A stretch of DNA of 64,000 nt from Actinomycetota bacterium (GTDB lineage: Bacteria; Actinomycetota; Acidimicrobiia; Acidimicrobiales; Ilumatobacteraceae): the NCBI GenBank assembly GCA_009702045.1, contig WLIV01000018.1, forward strand, positions 1 to 64,000. The letters are read 5' to 3'. Of this stretch, positions 45,912 through 48,926 are shown one piece after another. A program made the position numbers and the translations under genes. The notes under the pieces were generated by a model. It had not been told where the DNA came from. It made no database searches and was given only the letters and a program-made list of their open reading frames with translations. The number at the start of each line of letters is the position of its first letter. Position 1 is the stretch's first letter.

Positions 45912-46940
45912 ATGGCCGCGAAGATGTACTACGAGGCGGACGCCGATCCGTCGATCATCCGGAGCCGCAAGGTGGCCATCATCGGCTACGGCTCGCAGGG
46001 CCACGCCCACGCGCTCAACCTCAAGGAGTCGGGCGTCCAAGTCGTCGTCGGCTTGCGCGAGGGCAGCAAGTCGGCCGCTAAGGCCGAGGCCGCAGGCCTC
46101 AAGGTGATGGACATCGCTGCTGCCGCCAAGTGGGCGAACGTGATCATGCTCACGATGCCCGATACAGAGCAGAAGGCGACCTACGAAGAGTTCGTCAAGC
46201 CGCACATGCGCAAGGGCAAGGCCCTCGCGTTCGCACACGGCTTCAACATCCGCTTCAAGCGCATTCGTCCGCCGAAGAGCGTCGACGTGATCATGATCGC
46301 CCCCAAGGGCCCGGGTCACCTCGTGCGTCGCACCTACACCGAGGGCGGCGGCGTGCCGGCGCTCATCGCTGTCCACCAGGACGCCACGGGTGGAGCTCAT
46401 GCGCTGGCGCTCAGCTACGCCGACGCCATCGGCGGCGCCCGCGCTGGTGTCATCGAGACCACCTTCGCAGAAGAGACCGAGACCGACCTGTTCGGTGAGC
46501 AGGTCGTGCTCTGCGGCGGCCTCACCTCGCTGGTGCGCGCTGGCTTCGAGACGCTGGTCGAGGCTGGCTATCAGCCCGAGATGGCGTACTTCGAGTGCCT
46601 GCACGAAGTGAAGCTGATCGTCGACCTGATGTACGAGGAAGGGATCGCCGGGATGCGTTACAGCATCTCCGATACCGCCGAGTACGGCGACGTCACCCGC
46701 GGGTCGCGCATCGTGACGCCGAAGACCAAGCTGGAGATGAAGAAGATCCTCAAGGAGATCCAGTCCGGCAAGTTCGCCAAGGAATGGGTCGCCGAGAGCG
46801 AAGCTGGTCGCCCCAACTTCACCGCGCTGCAGGAGGCCGGTAAGGCCCACCAGATCGAGGAAGTCGGCGCGCAACTGCGTTCGATGATGCCGTTCCTCGG
46901 CGCCGGGAAGACCAAGGTCGCCGACGTCAGCGGCGGCTGA
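45912..46940 (+). CDS. ilvC: Ketol-acid reductoisomerase
   Basis: A 342-residue class I enzyme for the second step of valine and isoleucine synthesis. The NAD(P)H loop is [19 protein letters not shown]. The metal-binding acids are in [12 protein letters not shown] and the C-terminal knotted domain ([22 protein letters not shown]). Four bases after ilvN, completing the ilvBNC operon. Confidence 0.97.
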
Positions 46941-46967
46941 CCCCGGATTCTGGGAAGTATTCGTTTC

Positions 46968-47033
46968 GCGACGGCTTCTGGGCAGTGCTGGTTTCGGTTT
47001 CCGAGTCTGCGACTGCCCAGAGGCCATCGTCGC
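46968..47033 (+). terminator. Large imperfect hairpin after ilvC
   Basis: Left arm 46968-46986 pairs with right arm 47012-47033, including the perfect core TCTGGGCAGT/ACTGCCCAGA and GCGACG/CGTCGC ends, around a 25-nt loop. It lies 28 bases past the ilvC stop and ends 18 bases before the Hint gene. It probably terminates ilvBNC, though no U-run follows. Confidence 0.5.
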
Positions 47034-47051
47034 GTTGTGGGACAGTAGGGA

Positions 47052-47570
47052 ATGAACCTGCACATTGACCCGCAACCGGCGAATCTGGCCGGGGGTTTCA
47101 TCTGCGGCGATACCAAGGTGGCGCTGATGGATGGCCACCAGACCTCGATCGCCGACATCGTCGAGCACTTGCACCGTGGGGTGCACCACGCGATCTACGC
47201 GATCCACGAGGACGGCGGCGTGCACATGGCCCGACTGCTGAACGCGAGGCGCATGTCGCATGACATGGAGGTCTTGGCGGTGACACTCGACGACGGTGCC
47301 GTGATCCACTGCACTCCCACTCAGTCGTTGCTCGGCGCAGATGGTTCGTGGGTGGAGGTCCGCGCCTTGAAGGCCAGCGACGCACTGCTCACCGTCGTCG
47401 ACCCGCACCTGTGGAAGAGCGGTCGGCTCGACCCTGATCTGCATGCACATACCGAGGCGCAGCGCACGGTGGTCTCGGTGCTGAAATCACCCGACCGTGC
47501 CGTGTACTCCTTCGATGTCGATCAGTCGAACAACCTCGCGCACCCGAGTGGCGTCTTTCTCCACGATTAA
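47052..47570 (+). CDS. Stand-alone Hint (intein-like) domain protein
   Basis: A 172-residue protein that reads as an intein lacking exteins. After 17 residues comes C18 in FICGDTKVALMDGHQTSI, the intein block A pattern. TLDDGAVIHCTPTQSLLG (about 78-95) matches block B, but with Gln91 where the TxxH His is expected. GSWVEVRALKASDALL is the usual continuation. The end, VYSFDVDQSNNLAHPSGVFLHD, matches blocks F and G, with a final His-Asp where His-Asn is usual and then the stop codon. No homing endonuclease insert is present. Splicing is unlikely; N-terminal self-cleavage or another role is possible. Confidence 0.8.
   Translation: MNLHIDPQPANLAGGFICGDTKVALMDGHQTSIADIVEHLHRGVHHAIYAIHEDGGVHMARLLNARRMSHDMEVLAVTLDDGAVIHCTPTQSLLGADGSWVEVRALKASDALLTVVDPHLWKSGRLDPDLHAHTEAQRTVVSVLKSPDRAVYSFDVDQSNNLAHPSGVFLHD

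Positions 47571-47615: not shown

Positions 47616-48926
<1,311 letters not shown>

Follow-up and report, generated by a model that had tools for sequence, protein, structure and literature searches.

Inteins are usually pictured as parasites, which either splice or are lost together with their host genes. Their fold has, of course, been put to other uses. The well-known domesticated intein-like fold is the Hog domain of Hedgehog, which is autocatalytic via an N-terminal Cys.

Splicing classes are told apart by a few key residues. Class 1 inteins start with a nucleophile at position 1, those of class 2 rely on a Cys at position +1, and those of class 3 on a "WCT" triad (PMC7765530, PMC7664689, PMC3196547), formed by Trp B:12, Cys F:4, and Thr G:5 (PMC3196547). 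A small subset of inteins does without the block-B His, and a few of these splice (PMC6333167).

Some relatives of inteins stand outside this scheme. The class 3 type intein of Arthrobacter FB24 Arth_1007 has no real host gene, only exteins of 52 and 14 residues; it lacks the block-B His, failed to splice, and was judged to be a decayed pseudogene (PMC3196547). The yeast genes HO and WHO are standalone and intein-related, without exteins; HO does not splice, and both keep an endonuclease domain and a zinc finger (PMC7282813). Bacterial intein-like (BIL) domains are autocleaving parts of larger proteins (PMC7765530). In the accessible portions of the literature on solo, orphan, free, exapted, or co-opted inteins (including PMC8987985, PMC9466650, and PMC6805012), no gene was found that resembles the one described here.

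A solo Hint gene between ilvC and metY

The window is a stretch of 64,000 nucleotides from an Actinomycetota bacterium of the family Ilumatobacteraceae (contig WLIV01000018.1, positions 1 to 64,000). The features of interest in it are the following.

45912..46940, + strand: ilvC, the upstream neighbor (Pfam KARI_N and KARI_C)
46967..47034, + strand: strong hairpin between ilvC and the solo Hint gene (folding of the intergenic bases)
47052..47570, + strand: solo pseudo-Hint gene, 172 amino acids (reading frame, fold, purifying selection, eight copies spread over seven of the 15 genomes of the genus)
47616..48926, + strand: metY-type Cys/Met metabolism PLP enzyme, the downstream neighbor (Pfam Cys_Met_Meta_PP)

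Thus, ilvC, the solo gene, and metY lie in this order on the same strand. The first-pass annotation of this DNA had placed a frame of 172 residues here, behind an ilvC hairpin, and the coordinates, the strand, the hairpin, and the domains of both neighbors all agree with it. The frame runs for 172 codons from an ATG at 47052 to a TAA at 47568-47570. The codons leading to the start are CAG TAG GGA ATG; the in-frame TAG two codons 5' of the ATG means that the frame has no earlier in-frame start, and it rules out the view that the frame is a piece of a longer protein. An antisense or chance frame is likewise ruled out, by codon-position bias and by the ratios of nonsynonymous to synonymous change given below.

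The hairpin in the 111 bases that separate ilvC from the solo gene is long and very stable (−53.9 kcal/mol, z −4.36; not equaled in 200 shuffles) and lacks a T-tract. Neither a T-tract terminator nor a sigma-70-type promoter was found in this interval.

Fold and profile matches

A search with Hint profiles, proposed in the first-pass annotation as a check, did return matches, each below its curated threshold. Pfam Intein_splicing (PF14890) covers residues 24-171 at E 1.5e-6 and 28.5 bits, under the curated cut-off of 35.8 bits for membership; five of the eight family members described below reach E 1 or better against it. NCBIfam RtcB_rel_intein2 covers residues 15-114 at E 3.7e-12 and 45.9 bits, far below its whole-protein cut-off, and NCBIfam intein_Nterm gives E 3.6e-4 and 21.5 bits, under its cut-off of 24.5.

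An AlphaFold2 model built on an alignment of eight sequences has a mean pLDDT of 85 and a pTM of 0.82, with residues 11-20 averaging 68. The best 50 of 254 Foldseek matches in the PDB (E up to 10) are all intein, BIL, or Hedgehog domains, with E about 1e-8 to mini-inteins. Structural alignment (VIA) to the Mtu RecA intein 3ifj gives Z 19.6 and an rmsd of 1.8 over 138 residues, the alignment ending with D172 on residue 440. The BIL domain 2lwy (Z 16.7) and the Hedgehog Hog/Hint domain (Z 16.3-16.7) share the same fold. By its computed fold, then, the window protein belongs to the Hint superfamily over the whole domain. With a stop at the intein terminus, it is also what had been proposed for it: a free Hint protein in a gene of its own, with no C-extein.

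Within the window genome (99.45% complete), the protein matches only itself, and Pfam Intein_splicing, at E up to 0.001, picks out no other gene. Several inteins were seen in other genomes of the genus (L016-L045), in genes read as DnaB, SufB, a UvrD-type helicase, and UDP-glucose dehydrogenase. PHROGs and PADLOC hold no family for the two solo members scanned. A polymorphic-toxin Hint is ruled out, the PT-HINT profile matching one of eight members at E 0.079. Among the matches listed from BFVD, A0A2Z3EFP0 (172 amino acids) and A0A1S5RCV4 (143 amino acids, Lactobacillus phage P1) match the solo model nearly end to end; these may be independent stand-alone Hint proteins, or fragments.

Residues needed for splicing

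The protein can be divided by alignment with host-embedded inteins into these parts.

47052..47096, + strand: leader of 15 residues in the place of the N-extein (alignment; P9, G14, and G15 invariant in 8/8 copies)
47088..47096, + strand: A13-G14-G15, the same three residues that end the GyrB N-extein at the EGDSAGG/C junction (GG in 8/8, A in 4/8)
47097..47099, + strand: Phe16, at the position of intein Cys1 (sequence alignment; F in 6/8, L in 2/8; Gly15 instead by the structural aligner)
47103..47105, + strand: Cys18, at intein position 3 (sequence alignment; Ala in 4/8 copies)
47313..47324, + strand: block B, TPTQ, residues 88-91 (Thr/Ser retained; His replaced by Gln91 in 8/8)
47391..47447, + strand: loop, about residues 114-132, the endonuclease site in related inteins (alignments; a low-confidence stretch of the model)
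47505..47567, + strand: blocks F and G, YSFDVDQSNNLAHPSGVFLHD (penultimate His retained; terminal Asn replaced by Asp172 in 8/8; Asp at F:4 replaced by Ser153)
47568..47570, + strand: stop codon where the +1 residue of a C-extein would be (8/8 copies)

At the amino end, AGG-F-ICGDT of the solo protein is set against AGG-C-FSGDT of GyrB inteins, and the aligned start of a phage terminase-type intein reads G-C-VTGDT. The structural aligner makes residue 15 of the model equivalent to intein residue 1. Under either alignment, position 1 has no nucleophile. The N-terminal Cys block of the first-pass annotation is therefore misplaced, its Cys falling at position 3, and the proposal built on it, that self-cleavage would free the N-terminal 17 residues, is not supported. 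The same annotation had the rest of the active site right: the Gln in block B, the final Asp, and the immediate stop are invariant across all eight homologs. Position F:4 (residue 153), an Asp in inteins, reads S, S, T, T, E, E, E, and E across the copies, and the penultimate His (H171) is kept in every one.

No class of intein fits these residues. Class 1 would have a nucleophile (Cys, Ser, or Thr) where six copies have Phe and two have Leu. It would also pair the block-B Thr with a His, and follow the penultimate His with a terminal Asn and a C-extein nucleophile; the block-B Gln and the Asp followed by a stop are further departures from it. Class 2, which has no nucleophile at position 1, would have a Cys at +1, which is a stop codon in all eight. 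Class 3 is ruled out by the absence of WCT: B:12 is L, V, or F, F:4 is S, T, or E, and G:5 (residue 170) is L. Some inteins lack the block-B His; thus, Q91 by itself is not decisive for a loss of splicing. Nevertheless, we know of no splicing class able to run on this set of residues as a whole, and the family, judged by its alignment, no longer has the residues that splicing requires; it is apparently inactive.

The same comparison separates the solo protein from the other relatives. Unlike BIL domains, it has neither a downstream flank nor a nucleophile at position 1. Unlike the Hog domain, it has Phe or Leu where the N-terminal Cys nucleophile would be. Unlike HO and WHO, it has only a short loop at the place of the endonuclease, and at 172 amino acids is too small to house one.

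Distribution and genomic context

A search of 15 genomes of the genus with the family alignment gave eight copies in seven genomes. The other eight genomes gave no match, four of them being less than 90% complete. Identity of the seven further copies to the window protein is 97, 74, 68, 53, 50, 49, and 42%, and all eight end in ...LHD followed by a stop. Searching 221 genomes from 27 genera of the family added no solo copy. No further solo form turned up in samples of the order (397 genomes), class (395), and phylum (396); the remaining intein or Hint matches there lie in frames of at least 280 amino acids, the shortest of which, at 280, starts at a contig end. Matches in G036 (E 0.005) and G090 (E 0.002) were set aside as incomplete matches inside longer frames, of which one has an internal stop. 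A scan of viral contigs found one relative with the family alignment, a phage terminase-type intein, and none with one subfamily-II protein.

The copies fall into two subfamilies, I (G000, G009, G014, and G007) and II (G002, G006, and G013), which occupy different parts of the genus GyrB tree, where several forks are weak. In subfamily I, the gene precedes metY. It immediately follows ilvC in G000 and G007, and an acyltransferase-like gene lies upstream of it in G009 (by Pfam) and G014 (by reading); in G014, one convergent gene separates it from metY. In G007 (L004, reverse complement), the 3' end of ilvC (GGTCGCCGACGT...GGCTGA) is duplicated at about 856 and 929, 73 bases apart and just 5' of the solo gene, possibly as a scar of insertion or recombination.

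Subfamily II is found near the tmRNA gene, at a distance of 64 bases in both G006 and G013, and of about 2 kb in G002.

L097, 2298-2688; L098, 217-607; L100, 9393-9781: tmRNA genes near the subfamily-II copies

Genes downstream of these copies are DUF1330-like and EthD-like, the DUF1330 match in G002 being just under the cut-off. In G006, a recombinase gene lies on the far side of the tmRNA. The second, divergent copy in G013 adjoins a pyridoxamine-oxidase-like gene. Its contig (L010 / L099) starts inside sequence encoding the tmRNA tag (ANEQFALAA), while the whole tmRNA gene is on another G013 contig; perhaps this is a partial duplication. The 1.5 kb upstream of metY holds no trace of the solo gene in G006, G002, G008, G010, or G012, and in G006 the gap between ilvC and metY is 192 bases.

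In relatives, then, the gene lies before metY in subfamily I and elsewhere in subfamily II. The different location of subfamily II rules out that the gene is functionally tied to ilvC or metY. No neighbor is common to both subfamilies, and therefore the context names no function.

Relation to GyrB inteins

The sequences closest to the solo proteins are GyrB inteins (L073, L074, and L075, together with L095 from the Bernardetia sp. plasmid NZ_CP147018.1). These have the same blocks and the same AGG before position 1. Unlike the solo protein, they sit within gyrB and have Cys1, the block-B His, the terminal Asn, and a C-extein. At 349-435 amino acids against 172, three of these four inteins are long enough for an endonuclease.

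With its leader removed, the solo-family profile scored the four GyrB inteins at 74.9-83.9 bits against 55.4 bits or less for 11 other inteins, in a comparison set of 14 hand-picked inteins and a fifteenth (L095), which was thus not drawn at random. Of the four GyrB inteins, three had been found by searching with the solo family, and therefore this set is not neutral. Hosts (GyrB, RtcB, NrdJ, terminase, DnaB, SufB, and UvrD) were named by reading the exteins, only the Bernardetia gyrB being annotated. For each of the eight solo proteins, the top blastp match among the 15 was a GyrB intein. In the phylum sample, GyrB inteins in genomes were matched at E down to 1.5e-20.

The window protein had a single match among 72,556 plasmid records, the intein in the annotated Bernardetia gyrB, at E 5e-14 and beginning at residue 13; a subfamily-II query returned the same single record at E 6e-5. 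The 50,697 phage records gave one match, an intein within a long frame, at E 2e-5.

Residues 13-15 of the window protein (AGG, with GG in all eight copies) are identical to the end of the GyrB N-extein, which reads EGDSAGG before the Cys. The genus itself has no intein at this site: 13 GyrB loci in 13 genomes read EGDSAGG-SALNA, with no GyrB match in G004 and G008. A divergent second GyrB homolog in G012 reads EGDSAGG-TAVDA.

A phylogenetic tree gathers the eight solo proteins into a clade with support of 100/99. Inteins of GyrB, RtcB, and terminase, together with one from NrdJ, share a weakly supported fork (85/40) with this clade, which has no resolved sister. Here, an origin from a GyrB intein is supported by similarity and by the apparent AGG scar, rather than by the tree. 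These comparisons also support the proposed descent of the solo gene from an intein that has lost its former host gene.

Purifying selection and newly fixed positions

None of the eight copies has an internal stop. Five pairs, chosen out of the 28, gave pN/pS of 0.085 (window/L002), 0.039 (L006/L007), 0.29 (L003/L004), 0.22 (L005/L006), and 0.27 (window/L003), with Fisher p < 1e-11 for each. The gene is maintained by purifying selection and is not decaying. Selection of this kind on an autonomous, intein-derived frame is the mark of an intein gene kept, and exapted, by its host, and it is seen in all five pairs. Between the two subfamilies, pN/pS is 0.53-0.73 at dS 0.75-1.6, and L010 against its own subfamily gives 0.58-0.59; these higher values may reflect saturation, or constraint that is relaxed or shifted.

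Fifteen positions are fixed in all eight solo proteins and different in all four GyrB inteins, among them D81, H86, Q91, W100, H164, and D172. H131 also counts among the fifteen, but lies in the loop, where the alignment means little.

How the gene may have arisen

The gene is preserved by selection although its product is apparently unable to splice. It therefore probably has a new job. The account that we hold to be probable, with moderate confidence, is that this is an escaped and exapted GyrB-type intein, a catalytically silent pseudo-Hint kept as an autonomous protein in one uncultured actinobacterial genus. Here, an intein inserted after ...EGDSAGG would have ended up outside gyrB together with the last few N-extein residues, acquired a start codon of its own and a stop where the C-extein had been, and lost its endonuclease. 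Catalysis would have been lost as Cys1 became Phe, the block-B His became Gln, the block-F Asp became Ser, Thr, or Glu, and the terminal Asn became Asp. The protein would then act without splicing or cleaving itself. Its leader may remain uncleaved and permanently in the N-extein groove, and the former active site, with the fixed C-terminal His-Asp, may offer a stable surface or pocket to a partner or ligand. The most likely exapted role is that of a small binding or regulatory module, a putative assignment that we infer and that would agree with the regulatory protein suggested in the first-pass annotation. Against the escape of a GyrB-type intein, and tempering confidence in it, stand the failure of the tree to single out GyrB inteins as sister, the NCBIfam match to an RtcB-type intein, the eight of 15 genomes without the gene, and the pN/pS between subfamilies.

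The active site might, of course, have been rebuilt rather than silenced, into a new catalytic site or a site for a ligand or metal, making the protein an enzyme or a sensor. Newly fixed H86, Q91, H164, and D172, which differ in every GyrB intein compared, together with retained C87 and H171, all constant in the eight copies, would suit such a site. The fixed H131, however, is in a loop of little alignment value, and no neighbor points to a pathway; this reading is unlikely, if worth keeping in mind. An active Hint protein cutting at the N-terminal Cys to release the first 17 residues is a far more doubtful proposition. In its favor, the predicted fold is intact, block B retains its Thr/Ser, and the penultimate His is still present. 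In an engineered intein, moreover, large residues at −1 can make up for the absence of the block-B His (PMC6333167). The Cys in question, however, is at position 3 and is Ala in half of the copies, position 1 is Phe or Leu, and block B has Gln throughout.

Equally improbable is a non-functional relic on its way out, in the manner of Arth_1007, which likewise lacks the block-B His (PMC3196547). Lost catalytic residues and the many genomes without a match would be expected of such a relic; frames free of internal stops, an unvarying C-terminus, and pN/pS of 0.039-0.29 in close pairs would not. The first-pass annotation had offered a relic of an intein that lost its host. As a statement of origin, this stands; it does not fit the present state, because close pairs are under strong purifying selection. 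It is also improbable, to nearly the same degree, that the gene is cargo of mobile elements with no function for the host. The tmRNA neighborhood in three genomes, the recombinase gene beyond it in G006, and a gene read as a transposase that adjoins the second G013 copy all suggest mobility. Each subfamily, however, keeps its own neighbors (metY, or DUF1330 and EthD) and its own part of the genus GyrB tree, some of whose forks are weak, and the plasmid and phage records yielded one match each, both inteins in long frames.

A probable exapted Hint domain in bacteria

An escaped and exapted GyrB-type intein would resemble the two nearest cases found in the literature without being either. Like Arth_1007, the solo family has no real host gene, but it has eight copies under purifying selection and no C-extein. 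Like HO and WHO, it stands alone without exteins. In being under selection, lacking an endonuclease, and stopping right at the intein terminus, it departs from both. We regard it as an exapted Hint domain, to be placed beside those already known.

In this set of bacterial genes, the intein has apparently outlived both its host gene and its catalysis, and is still under selection. Bacteria would thus have their own counterpart to the domesticated Hedgehog and HO. The question of what a Hint fold can do when it does not splice becomes testable with a small protein. Should the active site prove to have been rebuilt, a selfish splicing element would have turned into a host gene with an entirely new function, and a Hint protein would be acting on something other than itself.
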